Of a stretch of DNA of 59,178 bases, positions 2,889-52,527 are shown in pieces. The DNA lies in the NCBI GenBank assembly GCA_017478025.1, contig JAFVGZ010000009.1:1-59178 (forward strand), in the 5' to 3' direction. A model generated the notes under the pieces. The model was not told where the DNA came from. It ran no database searches and was given only the letters and a program-made list of their open reading frames with translations. This DNA comes from Prevotella sp. Lineage in GTDB: Bacteria; Bacteroidota; Bacteroidia; Bacteroidales; Bacteroidaceae. A program made the translations under genes and the position numbers. Each line of letters starts with the position of its first letter. The first letter of the stretch is position 1.

Positions 2889-4157
2889 ATGAACATTAAC
2901 GATTATGATTTCGCAGGCAAGAAGGCCATCGTTCGTGTGGACTTCAATGTGCCTCTTCAGGATGGCAAAATCACTGACGACACTCGTATCAAGGGTGCCC
3001 TCCCCACACTGAAGCTGATTCTTGAGAAGGGTGGTGCACTTATCATCATGTCTCACATGGGCAAGCCAAAGGGCAAGGTGAAGGCTGAGCTGTCACTGAG
3101 CCAGATTAAGGACGCTGTAGCTGCTGCACTTGGTGTGCCAGAGGTAAAGTTTGCTCCTGACTGTGCAAAGGCTGACGCAGAGGCTGCTGCGCTGAAGGCC
3201 GGTGAGGTACTGCTGCTGGAGAATCTCCGCTTCTATCCAGAAGAGGAGGGCAAGCCTGTAGGTATTGACAAGGCTGATCCTGCATACGAGGAGGCTAAGA
3301 AGGCCATGAAGGCAAGTCAGAAGGAGTTTGCTAAGAAGTTGGCTTCATACGCTGATTGCTGGGTAATGGACGCATTCGGTACCGCACACCGTAAGCATGC
3401 CTCTACTGCTGTCATCGCTGACTACTTCGATAAGGACAACCGTATGCTTGGACTCTTGATGGAGAAAGAGGTGCAGGCTGTTGATAATGTGCTGAATAAT
3501 ATCAAACGCCCATTCGTGGCTATCATGGGTGGATCAAAGGTGTCTTCTAAGATTGGCATCATTGAGAACCTGCTGGGCAAGGTTGACAAGCTCATCCTCT
3601 GCGGTGGTATGACATATACCTTTGCCAAGGCTCACGGTGGCGAGATCGGTCAGTCTATCGTTGAGATGGATAAGTTGGATGTTGCTCTTGGCGTTGAGGA
3701 ACTGGCAAAGAAGAACGGCGTTGAGTTGGTGCTGGGTACTGACTGCACAGCAACAGACGGTCTGGACTTCGCTACTCTGAGCGTGAAGCCAGGTGCAAAG
3801 ATTACAACATGCATGTCTAACGCAATTCCTGCTGACCTGGAAGGTGTGGACGCTGGTCCTGAGAGCCGCGAGGCATTCAAGAATGCTATCAAGGGCGCAA
3901 AGACTATCCTGTGGAACGGTCCTGCTGGCGTATTTGAGTGTGACGAGTTCACTGCTGGTTCACGCGCTATTGGCGAGGCTATAGCAGAGGCTACCGCAGA
4001 GGGCGCTTTCTCTCTCATCGGTGGTGGTGACTCTGTAGCTTGTGTGAATAAGTTCGGACTGGCAGACAAGGTGTCTTACATCTCTACTGGTGGTGGTGCA
4101 CTGCTCGAGGCTATCGAGGGTAAGGTGCTCCCAGGCGTAGCTGCTGTACAGGCATAA
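2889..4157 (+). CDS. pgk: Phosphoglycerate kinase
   Basis: A 422-residue glycolytic kinase that moves phosphate between 1,3-bisphosphoglycerate and ADP in the cytoplasm. The N-terminal substrate site ([34 protein letters not shown]) and the C-terminal nucleotide site ([36 protein letters not shown]) are all present in the expected order. Length is slightly above the usual ~395-400 because of an insertion near residues 120-150 ([17 protein letters not shown]), common in Bacteroidota enzymes. It stands alone between the kdsC operon and a convergent gene and ends before a strong hairpin. Codon usage is strongly biased (AAG, GGT, CTG), consistent with high expression. No clear TAnnTTTG promoter was found in the 133-bp gap upstream. 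Confidence 0.97.
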
Positions 4158-4214
4158 AGCAAGCCTTCCAAGAACGTAAGGAAAGAAGATAAGACCAAAT
4201 ATAAAGACATAAAA

Positions 4215-4256
4215 AAGCGGCATCGTATCAACGAAGATACGGTGCCGTTTGTTATT
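4215..4256. terminator. Bidirectional terminator between convergent pgk and glmM
   Basis: Arms 4215-4229 and 4235-4249 form a 15-bp stem (two G-T wobbles) around a 5-base loop. A T-rich run follows on the plus strand and an A6 tract precedes it (T6 for the minus strand), so it can end both converging transcripts. Confidence 0.85.
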
Positions 4257-4274
4257 AGGATAGTTAGGGGCTTC

Positions 4275-46065: not shown

Positions 46066-48846
46066 ATGACTTTAAGGAAAACATTGCTATCCCTTCTCCT
46101 TCTCCTGCCTTTGGCTATGAGCGCTGATGCACTTGATGACCTGCAACAGCTCTTTGCATCCAAACCACAGGTGCAGGAGAAAATCTATATCCACACGGAC
46201 AATAACTGCTATTTTCTCGGCGACACGCTGTGGTACAAGGCCTACGTCGTGAGGGCCGACAACCTGAAGCCCACCAACTATTCCAAGTACCTCTATGTGG
46301 AGCTGCTGTCCCCCGACGGCTATGTTGTGGAGCGTCAGCACATCCCCGTGAGTGCCAATGGTGCCACGTGCGGACAGTTTGCACTGACTGACACGCTCTA
46401 TTCCGGCTTCTATGAGGTTAGGGCCTACACGCGATGGCAGCTGAATTTCAACGTGACGCATAAGGACTACACCACCAATGACCGTCTGAAATTCTATGGA
46501 GTTCAGGCTGCTGCCGACTTCTTCCGCGACTTTGAGGGACTCTATTCCCGCGTCTTTCCCGTGTATCAGAAGCCCAATACCGTGGGTGATTTCAGCGAGC
46601 GCTATATGTCCAAGCGCCCCAAGCAGCGAGTGTTGAAGGAACACAAGGCGCTGTATGTCACCTTCTATCCCGAGGGCGGACACTTGGTAAAAGGCTTGTC
46701 GAGCAACGTCGCTTTTGAGGTCAAGGACAACAACGGCGAGCTGATAGACATCGAGGGCACCCTCTCCGATGGGCGCACCGTCAAGACTTCACACCTAGGC
46801 AAGGGCGAATTTAACATTACGCCGCAAGGTTCTTCTACGGCATTAAGGTTGCATTGGAACGACCGCGACTGGAGTTTCACACTGCCCAAGGCAGAGGAGG
46901 GTGGTGCTACGGTAGCTTATAATACCTCTAAGCACAGTGCCGACATTCGCAGCAAAGGCATCAGCGCCGCTGCCTATATGGTGATGTGCCGCGGAAAACT
47001 GATAAAGTTTGAGCGTATCAAAGGCAATACGACAGTGCAGCTCAGCGGTCTGCCCACTGGCATCAACGAACTGATAGTATATGATGTCAATGCCCAACCG
47101 TTGGCTTCGCGACTGTTCTTTGTGAACAATAACGATTACTCCAAGCCCCTGCAGGCTTCGCTGACTACTGTTGCCGATGGCGGTACCGTTGGCAAGACCA
47201 CCACCATAGCCCCATACGCTGCCATGCAGTTACAGGCCAGCAGCGATGTGCCATTGCCCACCGTCAGCATCTCCGTGCACGATGCACAGACCGACGAGCC
47301 GGGATATGACGATGGAAACATCATGACCGACATGCTGCTAAGCTCAGAACTGAAAGGCTTCATACCTTATCCAGCCCAGTATTTCCCTATGGCAAAGGGT
47401 GGCAAAGAGCCTGATGCCGCAACGCTTGCGAAGGCTGCACAGAACCTTGACCTGCTGATGAAGGTGCAGGGCTGGCGCAGGTATAAGAGGCAGAAGCAAC
47501 TGCGCTACCTCCCCGAGAGGCGTTTCACTTTTGAGGGCACCGTGCTCACCATCCCCGACATAGCTTCAATAGCATTAGAAACAGACTTCGCCAATGCCGG
47601 CAAGAAAGCTTATACTACCAGTGATTTGGCAGAAACGGATATGCAACAATGGGTAGGTGGTACGACATCATATGAATCCTTTGAAAGCGTACGCCCTGAC
47701 GATGAAGACACTGAAAACATGGAATTGACAGCCGAGACCGTTGACGACCAAGTGGAATACGCCACGCAGCAAGACATGAAGTTAGGTTCTGGACGTGTAA
47801 AGCGTTCCGTTATCGTGGAGGCAAACCTCACCAAGGACGGCGACCTGGCAGTTGCATCGGCGCGCACAGACAGAAACGGACACTTCATTTTCAATCTGCC
47901 AGAGTACTACGACAGTGCCATTCTCTTTGTCAAGGCTTATAACCCAGCAGACTCAGCAAGCAAGAATCTCTCTGCCCGTGACCCGCAGTTTGCTAACGAA
48001 AGAGTCTTCCCTGACTACTTCGTGAAGCGCGATATGATATTCCCCATCTACTCACAGCCCTACTCATGGTATCAGATGAACTCCCCTGAGCTGCAGTTCT
48101 TTGACGAGGATGACGAGAACATACCTGAGAACAGCAAGCTGGCAGGCGATCATCGTCTGCAGACGGTCATTGTGAAAGCCCGTCGTCGCGGCAAGCGAAG
48201 GATTGACATGGATAAGCCAGCATTGGTGCGTGATATCTATCAGATATACAATGACATCAGCGATTATGGTCTGATGCTGGGTGTCTATGATGCTACGCGC
48301 ATGCCTGTAGCTGTGGCAACCTATCTCTGCGGCAACATGGGACGTCGCAATATGTTCAATATCCGTGCTATGGTCAATGGCACATCCTTCTATCGCAACT
48401 ACATTCCCACAGGCAACGAGTATGACAAACCCGCAACATCGTTAGCGGTATTTCAGAACACGATGCTGACAAACCTGAAGGATATCCGCGCCTATACCGA
48501 CTATGAGCTGCGCACGGACTCCGGCGCTGTGGTAGAAACGAACAGCCCGGACATCACGCTTGAGTTTGTGCCCATGCCTGAAGGCTCCAAGCGCTACACC
48601 TACCGTGACCGTCGCTACGTGCTTGATGGCATTGCGTACCCAGAGGAATACTATTCCCCTGACTACTCCAAGGCCATACCAAAGGAGCCGAAGGACTATC
48701 GTCGCACGCTCTATTGGAACCCGAATGCCAAGCCCGAGGCTGATGGTCGTTTCACCACAACACTCTACAACAACTGCCGTGAGACGAGGGTAACAGTGTC
48801 TGCCTGCGGCATAGACGGCGAGGGTCACGCCTACTTCAACTATTGA
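46066..48846 (+). CDS. Large exported protein with MG2-like (macroglobulin-type) N-terminus
   Basis: A 926-residue protein with a signal peptide (LLSLLLLLPLAMSADA). The opening VQEKIYIHTDNNCYFLGDTL and WYKAYVV matches the MG2-type beta-sandwich seen in Bacteroidota macroglobulin-like proteins, which usually begin 'EKvYlHtDk..Y..GetiWfk'. Two further beta-rich regions follow (YVTFYPEGGHLVKGLSSNVA; then SVIVEANLTKDGDLAVASAR near 585). The second half includes a plug-like segment with IYQIYNDISDYG and FNIRAMVNGTSFYRN near 725-790, recalling TonB-plug relatives of such proteins. There is no thioester motif (GCGEQ). The role is unknown; outer-membrane or periplasmic location is likely. It is the last gene of the pectin region. 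Confidence 0.6.
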   Translation: MTLRKTLLSLLLLLPLAMSADALDDLQQLFASKPQVQEKIYIHTDNNCYFLGDTLWYKAYVVRADNLKPTNYSKYLYVELLSPDGYVVERQHIPVSANGATCGQFALTDTLYSGFYEVRAYTRWQLNFNVTHKDYTTNDRLKFYGVQAAADFFRDFEGLYSRVFPVYQKPNTVGDFSERYMSKRPKQRVLKEHKALYVTFYPEGGHLVKGLSSNVAFEVKDNNGELIDIEGTLSDGRTVKTSHLGKGEFNITPQGSSTALRLHWNDRDWSFTLPKAEEGGATVAYNTSKHSADIRSKGISAAAYMVMCRGKLIKFERIKGNTTVQLSGLPTGINELIVYDVNAQPLASRLFFVNNNDYSKPLQASLTTVADGGTVGKTTTIAPYAAMQLQASSDVPLPTVSISVHDAQTDEPGYDDGNIMTDMLLSSELKGFIPYPAQYFPMAKGGKEPDAATLAKAAQNLDLLMKVQGWRRYKRQKQLRYLPERRFTFEGTVLTIPDIASIALETDFANAGKKAYTTSDLAETDMQQWVGGTTSYESFESVRPDDEDTENMELTAETVDDQVEYATQQDMKLGSGRVKRSVIVEANLTKDGDLAVASARTDRNGHFIFNLPEYYDSAILFVKAYNPADSASKNLSARDPQFANERVFPDYFVKRDMIFPIYSQPYSWYQMNSPELQFFDEDDENIPENSKLAGDHRLQTVIVKARRRGKRRIDMDKPALVRDIYQIYNDISDYGLMLGVYDATRMPVAVATYLCGNMGRRNMFNIRAMVNGTSFYRNYIPTGNEYDKPATSLAVFQNTMLTNLKDIRAYTDYELRTDSGAVVETNSPDITLEFVPMPEGSKRYTYRDRRYVLDGIAYPEEYYSPDYSKAIPKEPKDYRRTLYWNPNAKPEADGRFTTTLYNNCRETRVTVSACGIDGEGHAYFNY

Positions 48847-48978
48847 CGGTGGTGTGCCCCAGGGGCAGAGCACACACTTTCGCTAATTCATAAATAATTC
48901 GTCTTTTGCAAGTATGCCCTGCTCAGAGCTTTGCTCGCCTGAGCACCGATAATATTGAATGATGTGCGAAGAAGGACC

Positions 48979-49012
48979 CGCTCGGCCCTTTGGTATGCTT
49001 GCACAGCAATAA
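48979..49012 (+). repeat. Dispersed intergenic element, copy 4
   Basis: CGCTCGGCCCTTTGGTATGC followed by TTGCACAGCAATAA matches the element. Upstream, GCTCGCCTGAGCACCG (about 48942-48957) also resembles CCTCGCCTGAGTACCG near 14760, so the related block may be longer than the core. Confidence 0.5.
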
Positions 49013-49017
49013 CCTAC

Positions 49018-49055
49018 TTATAGCCCAGGGCATCGCTCTGGGCTATAAGTTTTTA
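49018..49055 (+). terminator. Terminator-like hairpin
   Basis: TTATAGCCCAG (49018-49028) pairs perfectly with 49038-49048 around a 9-base loop and is followed by a GTTTTTAG run. A related sequence (CGCCCTGGGCTATAGGCTTTT) is found near 23110. Confidence 0.6.
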
Positions 49056-49174
49056 GCCTTACAGACCGTTTTCCCAAAAGTCGAGTAATAGGACGTTCTT
49101 GCGCTCCATAGGTGCTCAGGCGCTTCGCGTAGTCCTCCGATTTGGGTGTAACCGAAAGATTTTCACCATTTTTC

Positions 49175-49205
49175 TTTGTCGTTTCAAAAATAATTCCTAA
49201 ATTTG
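49175..49205 (+). promoter_or_regulatory. Promoter of the structured RNA candidate
   Basis: TTTG (49175-49178) and TAAATTTG (49198-49205) are 19 bp apart, a full consensus match. The nearest ATG of a real gene is 380 bp downstream, so the first transcribed bases are noncoding. Confidence 0.6.
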
Positions 49206-49209
49206 CAGC

Positions 49210-49500
49210 GTCACTTGAAGGTTACCACGAGTACCCCCCAAAGAGTGACAGACATAGAGGCAGAAAACAGAAGTGTTATGCTCTTTCTTGCAAGCTGAAA
49301 ACGTAGGAAATTTTCAATCATTGCAGAATGTTTTTGAGATGGGTCAGTGTAAACACTGTCACACCTGAAATAACAGGAGATAGACATAGCAGCTTCACGC
49401 TATGCGTGGAACTGACTATAGAAATCATCTTTGTTATTTCGGGTAATCCTACGACCCTCAGCTTGAAGATGTGAATATACAGTTCCACGCTTCTTGTAAG
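49210..49500 (+). ncRNA. Candidate structured noncoding RNA or leader, pseudoknot-like
   Basis: No protein-like frame is seen here, but complementary segments are dense. Local hairpins: GTCACT/AGTGAC (49210-49215/49244-49249), TGAAAA/TTTTCA (near 49296-49316), CAGTGT/ACACTG (49345-49350/49353-49358) and CATAGC/GCTATG (49385-49390/49399-49404). Two long pairings interleave: ACCTGAAATAACA (49363-49375) with 49432-49444 (13 bp, one wobble), and GCGTGGAACTG (49404-49414) with 49480-49490 (11 bp, perfect). The order A-B-A'-B' is that of an H-type pseudoknot. CACGC-TAT-GCGTG (about 49397-49409) competes with both. It matches no RNA family I recognise. It could be a separate small RNA or the leader of the gene at 49585. 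Confidence 0.45.
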
Positions 49501-49522
49501 TGTATAACAGGCCTTAACTTTG
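49494..49522 (+). promoter_or_regulatory. Second promoter, nearest to the first leucine-rich repeat gene
   Basis: TTG (49494-49496) and TAACTTTG (49515-49522) are 18 bp apart. It overlaps the end of the structured stretch and lies 62 bp before ATG 49585, so the surface-protein genes could be transcribed apart from the upstream RNA. Confidence 0.5.
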
Positions 49523-49584
49523 GAATGAAAAGGCTTTGATTAGTACTAGTACTGATTCCTAAAACAATATAACTTCTACGGACA

Positions 49585-52527
49585 ATGAAACAAAAACTAT
49601 TCTTATTAACACTTTTAATTGTAGGATATAATTATTCTGTAAAAGCTACAATTGAATACTATTCTGATTCTGAGTTGCATCTGAACTTTAAGCTTGATAC
49701 GGATACTAAAGAAGCCACCATTGGAACAGGGCTGGACAGAGAACGTGCTAACGCAATTTACATGCCTCCTTATGACGATCCATGGTGGAACACCGGCGAA
49801 AATCTATGGCAATACCTTGACATACCTAGCACAATTACGTATAAAAATATTACTTATACGGTTAGAGAAGTCGCACCCTTTGCTTTTTTTAAGTCATCCA
49901 GTATTCAAAATATCAAACTGCCTGAAACAGTTCGACATATTGGAGCATTTGCATTTTATTGGTGCAATAATCTGAAGTCTATTAACATTCCAGATTTAGT
50001 GACTTCAATTGAAGAGTCTACTTTTGTTTGGTGCAACAAGTTGGAATCCATAGAGTTGCCCGCGAATATTAGTTATATAGGCAATTCCGCTTTCAGCGAT
50101 TGTATCAATTTGAAAAGTATTAATATTCCAAGAAAATGTGCTTCTGTGGGTGACGAAGCTTTTAAATGGTGTACGAGTTTATCAACACTCATTATTGAGG
50201 ATGGAACAACACCCTTGAAATTGGCATGTTGCTATGGATTGGGACTTAATTATGATGGCTCTATGTCAAAACATTATCGAGGAATGTTTTCTGATTGTCC
50301 TTTGAAGCGTCTACATTTAGGAAGAGACATTGAATTCTTTTCTGAATTTATCAATGGATGGTATCCTCCATTTATGGGTTATTATTACAAGGGGAAAGGA
50401 ACGGATAATAAAGATATATTTATTGATGAAGGTAAAATATACGAAGAAGTTACTATTGGAGACAATGTCACAGTAATTCCTGAAGCTATGTTTAAATATG
50501 CTACAATTCCCAATAGTATTACTTTACCATCACAATTGAGATATATTGGCGATGATGCTTTTTCCAACAGAAGTGGAACAGATGGTACATTACATCAACA
50601 GCAACTTGTTTTTCCTGCCACTTTAGAGTATGTAGGTAAACATGCCTTTACAAATTGCTCACGTCTTGGCACAATTGTTTGCGAGGGAACAACTCCACCA
50701 GCACTTCCTGACAGAACATACTATAACGCTTTCAGTGGTTGTAATATACTTTTTTTTGTTCCTCAAAATACAAGAACAACATATTTGAACACAGACAATT
50801 GGAGTGGTTACAAAATTGTGGAGGCCTCAGATATCGTAGTAACAATCAACGTGAAAACTGCAGGAACTCTATTTGATAGATTAAATGCGCAAGGGTATCA
50901 ATTAGGAACTATTACACGATTGAAATTAAAAGGAACATTAAATGGCACTGACTGGGCACTGCTTCAAAAAATGTCGGTATTATATGACTTAGACATTTCA
51001 GAACTCGACATGGAAGAAATATCAGAAGGGCAGTTTGCCCAAAGTTCCCTTATTTATATAAAATTGCCCCAAAATATAAAGGCTATCCGCGACAATGCAT
51101 TTTACCAATGTAGAAATCTCACTGGCACAATAGAGATTCCTGTATCTTGTACCGAGATTGGGAAACAGGCATTTCGAGAGACAGGAATCACAGGTTTGCT
51201 ATATGAAACCCCATTACATATCTCAGAATTCGCATTTTGTGATTGTTCTCGTCTTGAAGAAGTATATATTAAAGGTGAAGGTACAATTGTTGATTGGCTT
51301 GCATTTGGAAAGTGTGGTTTAAAAAAAGTGACAATTGGAAGGGGAGTGACTCTTGGAGCAAATGCTGTGGTTTTATGTGATAATCTTAAAGAAGCGATCA
51401 TAGAAGATGGTGTAACATCTTTAGGGGAAAATTCATTATATAATGACGGCTTAGAGAAAGTTTATTTTGAAGGAGCTATAGAAGAAATTGGCAGATCTGT
51501 ATTTCGCAATGAATATATCGAAGAAGTTCATATTTCAGACATAGGCAAATGGTGTGAATTGACATTTCCGTATGAATCTCATCCATTTTACAGGCCAAAT
51601 GTTTCTGACCCGGTTCCAACCCTTTATTATAACGGTGAAGAATTGGTAAATGTTGAAATACCCGAAGGCGTTAAACGCATTGGTGATCTTTCCTTCTATA
51701 TGTGCGACAAATTAAAAACGGTAAAATTCCCCGAGACATTAGAATCTATCGGGACTAAGGCTTTTTATGGATGTACGTCAATGGAGAATATACAATTCCC
51801 ACCAAATTTGGAGAGCATTGGTTCAAATGCCTTTAGTCTGTGCAGTAATTTAACCAACATAGATATTCCACAAAGTGTTACAAGTATCTCTTCCGGAGCT
51901 TTCTACAATAATAAACTTAAGAAAGTAGTGGTGCACTGGAAAAATCCGATAGGTATATCATCCAATACTTTTTATAATGTTCCATCTGATTGTTGGTTGT
52001 ATGTTCCAATAGGAACCGCTTCAAAATATGCAAATCTAGAGTGGAATAAAATTCCTAACATTAAAGCAGTTGGCTTTCTAACTCTCAAGGTAAACACAGG
52101 TGGTTCAGCCAGTTGCGATGCTTATAATGTATCTGTTACAAATAACACAGAAAGCATAATGTTTACTCCTTATCAGGATTTTTATATAAAGCTGGTGCCG
52201 AATGAAAACCATAAGATATTCAAAGTAAAACTAAATGGAGTGGATGTATTGTCAGAACTGGAAAATGGACAACTATATATTGAGGATCCAGATGAAGATA
52301 TAGCCCTTGATATTACATTTGCAGAAAATCATATAGAAATGGGGGACACAAATGGAGACAGAGCCATTGATGAGAAAGATGCTAAACATGTGGCCGGTCA
52401 TATAATAAAAAAGAATTCTATAGATTCATTTTATGGGTATGCGGCGGATATGAATGATGATGGCGTTATCAATATTACAGATATTCTACTTATTATAAAA
52501 AAAGCTAAAGAGCTAAACCAAGAGTAA
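49585..52527 (+). CDS. BspA-type leucine-rich repeat surface protein with C-terminal dockerin
   Basis: A 980-residue exported protein. After a signal peptide (LFLLTLLIVGYNYSVKA) come two blocks of BspA/TpLRR (LRR_5) repeats, about residues 95-400 and 480-810, with units such as LKSINIPDLVTSIEESTFVW and LKTVKFPETLESIGTKAFYG. The last ~60 residues form a type I dockerin-like pair: DTNGDRAIDEKDAKHVAGHI and DMNDDGVINITDILLIIKKA, each with a calcium-loop D-x-N-x-D. Such LRRs mediate adhesion, and dockerins bind cohesins or act as calcium-stabilised end caps. The gene is AT-rich compared with the pectin genes. It lies 28 bp upstream of a second LRR gene. No typical T9SS tail is seen after the dockerin. 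Confidence 0.85.
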   Translation: MKQKLFLLTLLIVGYNYSVKATIEYYSDSELHLNFKLDTDTKEATIGTGLDRERANAIYMPPYDDPWWNTGENLWQYLDIPSTITYKNITYTVREVAPFAFFKSSSIQNIKLPETVRHIGAFAFYWCNNLKSINIPDLVTSIEESTFVWCNKLESIELPANISYIGNSAFSDCINLKSINIPRKCASVGDEAFKWCTSLSTLIIEDGTTPLKLACCYGLGLNYDGSMSKHYRGMFSDCPLKRLHLGRDIEFFSEFINGWYPPFMGYYYKGKGTDNKDIFIDEGKIYEEVTIGDNVTVIPEAMFKYATIPNSITLPSQLRYIGDDAFSNRSGTDGTLHQQQLVFPATLEYVGKHAFTNCSRLGTIVCEGTTPPALPDRTYYNAFSGCNILFFVPQNTRTTYLNTDNWSGYKIVEASDIVVTINVKTAGTLFDRLNAQGYQLGTITRLKLKGTLNGTDWALLQKMSVLYDLDISELDMEEISEGQFAQSSLIYIKLPQNIKAIRDNAFYQCRNLTGTIEIPVSCTEIGKQAFRETGITGLLYETPLHISEFAFCDCSRLEEVYIKGEGTIVDWLAFGKCGLKKVTIGRGVTLGANAVVLCDNLKEAIIEDGVTSLGENSLYNDGLEKVYFEGAIEEIGRSVFRNEYIEEVHISDIGKWCELTFPYESHPFYRPNVSDPVPTLYYNGEELVNVEIPEGVKRIGDLSFYMCDKLKTVKFPETLESIGTKAFYGCTSMENIQFPPNLESIGSNAFSLCSNLTNIDIPQSVTSISSGAFYNNKLKKVVVHWKNPIGISSNTFYNVPSDCWLYVPIGTASKYANLEWNKIPNIKAVGFLTLKVNTGGSASCDAYNVSVTNNTESIMFTPYQDFYIKLVPNENHKIFKVKLNGVDVLSELENGQLYIEDPDEDIALDITFAENHIEMGDTNGDRAIDEKDAKHVAGHIIKKNSIDSFYGYAADMNDDGVINITDILLIIKKAKELNQE

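Follow-up and report, generated by a model that had tools for sequence, protein, structure and literature searches.

Introduction

Pseudoknotted riboswitches such as the cobalamin and c-di-GMP-II classes (drawn here from general knowledge and compared via Rfam only) have a large covarying core in a 5′ leader and exclusive pairings near the start codon, and place several genes under one RNA type. Riboswitches often change their outputs around one such core. Bacteroidota are among the most abundant human gut bacteria and, to our knowledge, only a small number of cis-regulatory RNAs has been described in them. A leader fold combined with an upstream ORF (uORF) is known from atypical B12 riboswitches of Mycobacterium tuberculosis, set beside our RNA by description only, as given in part of PMC11260477. 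In Bacteroides, the FopS/GibS sRNAs constitute a multicopy paralogous RNA family of Bacteroidaceae; the FopS sRNAs, as portrayed in the matching passages of PMC11697453, carry a single-stranded 5′ stretch and a Rho-independent terminator hairpin, and act on target mRNAs.

Here we describe a structured RNA ahead of a BspA-type gene in a 59,178-nucleotide stretch of Prevotella sp. DNA (the window, meaning the whole stretch analysed). We interpret it as a candidate riboswitch-like cis-acting 5′ leader, with a probability of roughly 0.65 on the sequence evidence. On the sequence evidence, the RNA would share the features listed above with pseudoknotted riboswitches, its exclusive pairings near the start codon being predicted ones; unlike them, it has no Rfam match at cut-off, no common pathway was seen among its downstream genes, and most Bacteroidales cores enclose a mini-ORF. 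With the M. tuberculosis leaders it has in common a fold joined to a short frame, and with FopS/GibS its multicopy, paralogous occurrence in Bacteroidaceae, from which its pseudoknotted leader sets it apart by the FopS description (matching passages of PMC11697453), not by sequence. Identity with FopS/GibS was rejected, a T-run after the tail, as expected of the intrinsic terminator in those passages, being found in 10/139 copies of the Bacteroidales set.

No paper among the PMC open-licence full texts (taken without supplements) was recognised as describing this RNA. The leader family was not recognised in the matching passages of PMC11697453, PMC8040213, PMC7366714 and PMC2864571, and the Bacteroidota names searched for occur 0 times in PMC11109978 and PMC8632094. 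The Bacteroides-2 and GUCCY-hairpin motifs are listed without an Rfam number in the passages of PMC2864571, and motifs confined to supplements lie outside this search. Because these searches turned up no such RNA, the family is apparently a new class within the cis-acting structured leaders, unusual in the mini-ORF in its core and in its very wide gene set.

Results

A densely structured interval ahead of a BspA-type gene

The RNA lies in an intergenic interval bounded by the end of a 926-aa ORF (48846) and the start of a BspA-type gene (49585). A sequence-only reading of the window had proposed here a gene-free, pseudoknot-like RNA between two promoters, acting either as a separate small RNA or as a switch-like leader controlling adhesin expression. 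Only three ORFs of at least 50 aa lie wholly within 48846–49585; they measure 54–58 aa and are on mixed strands. Its features, and the gene that follows, are:

49175–49205, + strand: Bacteroidetes-type promoter, read from the sequence (TTTG at 49175–49178, TAAATTTG at 49198–49205, spacer 19 nt)
49210–49249, + strand: 5′ hairpin P0 (49210–49216 with 49243–49249)
49269–49497, + strand: conserved RNA core from P1 to the tail, matched by covariance model R1
49269–49494, + strand: helix P1 (49269–49275 with 49488–49494; only the outer 5 bp when PK-B is formed)
49278–49298, + strand: mini-ORF (start codon at 49278, 6 codons, stop inside P3)
49292–49464, + strand: helix P3 (49292–49298 with 49458–49464), from the swap test and covariation
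49302–49453, + strand: helix P4 (49302–49308 with 49447–49453), from the swap test and covariation
49318–49362, + strand: extra arm of about 45 nt, edges placed by eye, absent from the other rows of the first alignment
49363–49444, + strand: helix A, which occupies the family's P5 position (49363–49375 with 49432–49444)
49396–49408, + strand: hairpin P6b (49396–49400 with 49404–49408)
49404–49490, + strand: helix B, pseudoknot PK-B (49404–49414 with 49480–49490), exclusive with P6b
49511–49534, + strand: hairpin P7 (49511–49515 with 49530–49534), overlapping the proposed second promoter
49585–52527, + strand: downstream gene, a BspA-type LRR_5 protein with dockerin (Pfam), start codon 88 nt after the core

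The first promoter was found as proposed, and the two long helices are exact, helix A having 13 bp including one G-U and helix B 11 bp worth −19.0 kcal/mol as a duplex. Their A-B-A′-B′ interleaving was borne out in the sequence, and the local hairpin said to compete for the B strand is P6b. The density of structure exceeds chance: 49210–49495 folds to −91.4 kcal/mol compared with −64.6 (sd 5.0) for shuffled sequences (z = −5.4), none of 200 shuffles being as good. Hairpin P7 has a folding energy of −7.0 kcal/mol, and its loop GGAAU (49522–49526) is complementary to the core tail at 49482–49486, a 5-bp pairing termed PK-C. As for the second promoter, the letters TAACTTTG are present at about 49514–49521, but they sit inside the predicted P7 and are probably part of that hairpin; with TAnnTTTG within 50 nt after the core in 2/139 copies (the window and L074), a second promoter was rejected as a family feature.

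Around the RNA, the segment 49585–57406 encodes two large BspA-type LRR_5 proteins in tandem, with dockerin type I domains (Pfam). On the upstream side, 48910–49145 contains short palindromes of REP-like character that partially match dozens of sites genome-wide, and the whole intergenic interval as query gave 75 matches in the window’s genome.

A widespread family of structured RNAs

A DNA search of 60 relatives yielded three distant loci matching the folded part (L016, L019, L025), which have short conserved blocks in common and paired blocks that differ in step. A covariance model (R1) built from these three alone, with the window left out, gave a single match up to E = 1 on the 59-kb window (73.4 bits, E = 5.1e-16). 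Window positions 49269–49497 are a member of a widespread structured RNA family, recovered by these searches of related genomes: R1 copies occur in 79/149 genomes searched as relatives (52/98 of the good ones), at 1 to 14 per genome. A second model (R2), made from 95 matches, found 8 copies in the window’s genome up to E = 0.1 and, across the phylum, matched 21/296 genomes including the window’s, 19 of the 21 being from other orders of the class.

A search with a sequence pattern gave at least 118 stretches among the matches listed, 80 of which carry titles. Among these listed matches, titled isolates belong to Bacteroides, Phocaeicola, Prevotella, Mediterranea and Marseilla, titled metagenome-assembled genomes (MAGs) include Parabacteroides, Alistipes, Butyricimonas and Muribaculaceae, and two MAG records labelled Firmicutes and Roseburia may be misbinned. 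One genome of the window genome’s genus (G068) and a MAG labelled Prevotella sp. have identical leader cores (L041, L145). We pooled 151 copies and kept 139 distinct cores, at least 101 of them fetched with the pattern; because the pattern constrains part of P4 and part of the mini-ORF, frame and spacing counts were redone on the 38 copies found without it. Only the counts of 66, 62, 17 and 26 copies are thinned for relatedness.

The sequence-only reading had recognised no known family, and neither Rfam 15 nor the papers searched supplied one. Rfam 15 gave 0 matches on the window at the gathering cut-off, and a permissive search of 48847–49700 gave three far below it, one being Mu-gpT-DE at 49363–49388 (16.4 bits against a cut-off of 49); up to E = 1, six further loci and nine class-level loci showed no match on the RNA. 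With scores far under cut-off or no match, the permissively searched Rfam families were rejected.

Copies also occur in plasmid records and in one phage record. Of two plasmid copies, L188 at 4044–4260 (NZ_AP019725.1) and L185 at 4062–4246 (NZ_OY725823.1), one lies between a mobV relaxase gene and the beta-lactamase MUN-1, and one ahead of a DUF4433 gene, presumably DarT-type. Two copies have an off-family 5′ start of the core and look decayed: L190 (3975–4148), 375 nt before an annotated DUF6088 gene, and L072 (3574–3730), 226 nt before a gene resembling DUF6088 by eye.

Another conserved leader, roughly 330 nt long, precedes unrelated genes at L002 1560–1920 (G000:C30), L011 1510–1860 and L017 1510–1880 (edges approximate). 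L002 and L011 are 85% identical over 257 nt; the leader has a GGCGUGGGC block and, in these two loci, an end of CCUACGCC and a T-run. It gave no R2 match and a Rfam match only at chance level, in L017; it may be a distant sibling of the window’s family. The window’s promoter segment, 49108–49212, is 96% identical over 105 bp to G000:C30:104497–104601, before this second leader, and similar promoter stretches recur in relatives, as if leaders had exchanged promoters.

Covariation and predicted mutually exclusive pairings

Across 99 aligned copies, 96.0% of cells pair and 29 of the 35 pairs change on both sides, with 721 compensatory cells compared with 196.6 (sd 20.2) in shuffled alignments and 51 to 88 with partners slid; these counts accept G-U pairs and include the antisense row L048 (+) of alignment A5, which is left out of the swap tests and of the thinned mini-ORF counts. 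Fitting alignments A4–A6 to the R1/R2 structure biases them towards it, and the slid control and swap tests serve as the counterweight. In swap tests on 66 copies below 85% identity, P3 paired at 0.89 with its own partners versus 0.55 with swapped ones, with 38 distinct fully paired strands, and P4 at 0.99 versus 0.78; a perfect 7-mer of P5 was present in 54/66 copies versus 25.4% after swapping; P3, P4 and P5, whose place helix A takes, all covary. P1 (4.29 own versus 4.18 swapped of 5 pairs; 21/62 copies fully paired), P6b (0.99 versus 0.98) and PK-B (1.00 versus 0.99; 62 copies) showed no gain because their strands are near-invariant. The consensus also has conserved bases outside the helices. 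The alignments thus point to a covarying conserved core as in riboswitches, with promoter and ATG spacing placing it in a 5′ leader.

Since PK-B is too invariant for the swap test, it was examined in divergent copies. Overall, 451/469 PK-B cells pair in 67 copies (the 80 rows of A6 less 13 further same-source rows), a count made in the best register with no swapped control and including a misplaced window row; the window’s own PK-B was read separately. U-A pairs become C-G in L197, L198, L221 and L226, and G-C pairs become A-U in L193 and L191; L193 departs from the consensus in step at three places, namely hairpin arm, shared arm and tail. The weak hit L200 has a different helix at PK-B, in another register. 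P6b and PK-B share one arm and are mutually exclusive, and the divergent copies, though few, support helix B and the two exclusive folds that had been suggested from the window.

By eye, many copies have between the core and the ATG a P7 hairpin whose loop (GGGACUG, for example) is complementary to the CAGUUCC of the core tail; some copies, for example L061 and L063, have no visible P7 hairpin. Six-base PK-C complements were missing in 28/62 copies and present in 34/62 versus 24.7% after swapping, and in 22/40 copies with a non-consensus tail versus 18.0% (GGUGCUG/CAGUGCC, GGGCUG/CGGCCC and GGGUUU/AGACCC are examples). P0-like hairpins were seen by eye in many Bacteroidales copies.

Near-fixed spacing to a promoter and to varied genes

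The promoter element TAnnTTTG occurs within 110 nt before the core in 128/135 copies, compared with a shuffled expectation of 9.3 and with 12/135 in the next 110 nt; it starts a median of 52 nt before the core, measured on the motif nearest to 58 nt where several are present. In 123/139 copies the core is followed, in the same direction, by an ORF of 80 aa or more whose ATG lies within 300 nt of the core end; its median distance is 52 nt (quartiles 48 and 58.5), with 88/123 at 40–65 nt. Copies found without the pattern agree, with an ORF in 31/38, an ATG at 40–65 nt in 22/31 and a median of 52. Six of the 16/139 copies lacking an ORF by this rule have less than 500 nt left.

The 123 downstream proteins fall into 68 unrelated clusters, 54 of them single, the largest having 14 members (C10 peptidase and BspA-like) and 12 (HSDR_N-type, one of the 12 run on Pfam); Pfam was run on 9/123 downstream proteins. 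All 12 related HSDR_N-type genes keep a leader. Signal-peptide-like starts, called by a simple home-made rule, were found in 61/107 downstream proteins (ATG at 25–100 nt) versus 120/519 other ORFs of the same loci. No common pathway was seen among the downstream genes, no ribosomal protein gene was recognised among the starts of the 68 cluster representatives, and no reverse transcriptase (retron) was recognised among them by eye. Three of the eight copies in the window’s genome precede BspA-type genes: the window’s (Pfam) and, by eye, L195 and L199. The last (G000:C16:17361–17442), 47 nt before its BspA-type gene, is a natural internal deletion in which P4 to P6 are lost and, by eye, the promoter, P1, mini-ORF, P3, tail and P7 are retained.

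A switch-like leader is supported in Bacteroidales because promoter and ATG spacing are near-fixed, the helices covary and one strand has two exclusive conserved partners. On these sequence features the family looks like a 5′ leader in Bacteroidales, not a separate sRNA, and of the two proposals for the window copy the separate sRNA was rejected. Adhesin control is too narrow, because LRR surface proteins account for only a minority of the 68 downstream clusters.

A mini-ORF within the core

An ATG stands at the core start in 135/139 copies; in 118 of these 135, the frame it opens reaches a stop after 4 or 8 codons. Among copies found without the pattern, a start occupies this place in 37/38 (35 ATG, one TTG and one GTG, the latter two sought after the fact), the single exception being the decayed copy L190. 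The frame ends early mainly where P4 is out of frame with it: in these 38 copies, a stop within six codons was present in 13/16 with P4 out of frame versus 1/21 in frame (p = 2e-6), and in the pattern-fetched set in 39/43 versus 14/54 (p = 5e-11). Thinned below 75% identity, the counts are 6/8 versus 0/9 (p = 0.0023) for copies found without the pattern and 8/11 versus 2/15 (p = 0.004) for all Bacteroidales rows of A5. Such coupling would suggest that a short frame is translated and under selection, or at the least that its early termination is.

It would also suit a leader that senses ribosomes themselves, in which those on a mini-ORF of 4–9 codons stop at or inside P3/P4, open these helices and set the downstream fold, or, in a variant, bypass the structure and reach the main start; a small molecule would be unneeded. 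The start in nearly all copies found without the pattern, the coupling and, by eye, an A-rich region before the mini-ORF favour such sensing. However, the P4 triplet is a stop in either frame (20/21 in frame and 16/16 out of frame in the copies found without the pattern, for T followed by two purines only; 18/19 and 16/16 without that limit), so the P4 stop alone is no evidence. The start is also absent from three copies of the window’s genome (L195, L197, L198) and from 8/9 class-level copies (L201–L209), and the AUG could stem from a conserved hairpin loop, with the stops merely limiting accidental translation. We regard ribosome sensing as the sole input as doubtful, though worth entertaining.

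Copies outside Bacteroidales

Among nine class-level loci, six have an ATG 40–52 nt after the core (L201, L202, L203, L205, L208, L209), as do four of twenty further loci at 39–48 nt (L212, L215, L217, L218); many class-level copies have no ATG at about 50 nt. A run of at least five T within 24 nt of the tail motif follows 18/29 class-level copies versus 10/139 of the Bacteroidales set, which suggests a different output on the same core, perhaps termination. Candidate antiterminator pairing, by a generic test, occurred in 9/18 class-level copies with their own partner, not clearly above the 35.7% with swapped ones. These T-run relatives could be separate or attenuated RNAs. By eye, L210 and L206 seem to precede sigma-factor-like genes and L219 and L229 TonB-receptor-like ones, with ORF starts at 97 nt (L210), 226 nt (L219) and 228 nt (L229).

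Discussion

We propose that the family is a riboswitch-like leader that, from a near-fixed distance, probably switches many unrelated genes of gut and other Bacteroidota on and off. Transcription would start near 49210–49212, and the leader would fold into a compact pseudoknotted core. Its tail strand, 49480–49494, has three potential partners: the 5′ end (P1), the 3′ arm of P6 (PK-B) and the P7 loop before the start codon (PK-C). As P6b and PK-B would exclude each other, and a long PK-B would conflict with PK-C, the folds could interchange and would then differ just upstream of the start codon. If PK-B forms in the cell, this strand exchange may control translation start, T-runs being rare there in Bacteroidales, and a signal, or ribosomes on the mini-ORF, would set the fold for a regulon of accessory, often exported genes. 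As to the signal, GGDEF proteins (PF00990) are rare, occurring in 3/149 genomes, partly incomplete, compared with 8/14 control rings, whereas the RNA is present in 79 of the 149, and c-di-GMP is therefore an unlikely trigger. We prefer the riboswitch reading because one core with changing outputs is a habit of riboswitches.

An RNA-binding regulator could instead recognise the core and repress or activate translation of the regulon. Such a global binder would fit the conserved bases outside the helices and the diversity of the regulon, but a switch accounts equally well or better for the exclusive long-range helices, and we consider regulation by a protein alone unlikely. A stand-alone trans-acting RNA lying before genes by chance could explain the T-runs of class-level copies, which resemble intrinsic terminators; their rarity in the Bacteroidales set, the sharply peaked ATG spacing and the covariation of the segment before the ATG with the core tail make it improbable. 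Still less probable is an element that folds as single-stranded DNA and serves as a recombination site or marks a gene cassette, suggested by the plasmid and phage copies, once between mobV and a cargo gene, and by the unrelated downstream genes, but at odds with a promoter element at near-fixed spacing, with G-U among the accepted pair types and with the leader kept by each of 12 related HSDR_N-type genes.

Returning to the riboswitch-like leader, its multicopy occurrence before genes for surface proteins, secreted proteases, restriction-type proteins, a DUF4433 protein and a beta-lactamase would amount to an unnamed, regulon-scale layer of control, and would make directly testable the question of which one signal is common to these genes. 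More tentatively, the leader may be class-wide, with a start-stop mini-ORF built into the pseudoknotted core in Bacteroidales, where ribosomes, alone or with a ligand, would drive the exchange between P6b, PK-B and the loop beside the main start. If this were true, accessory, surface and mobile-element genes of Bacteroidota would be under a single common RNA on-switch.
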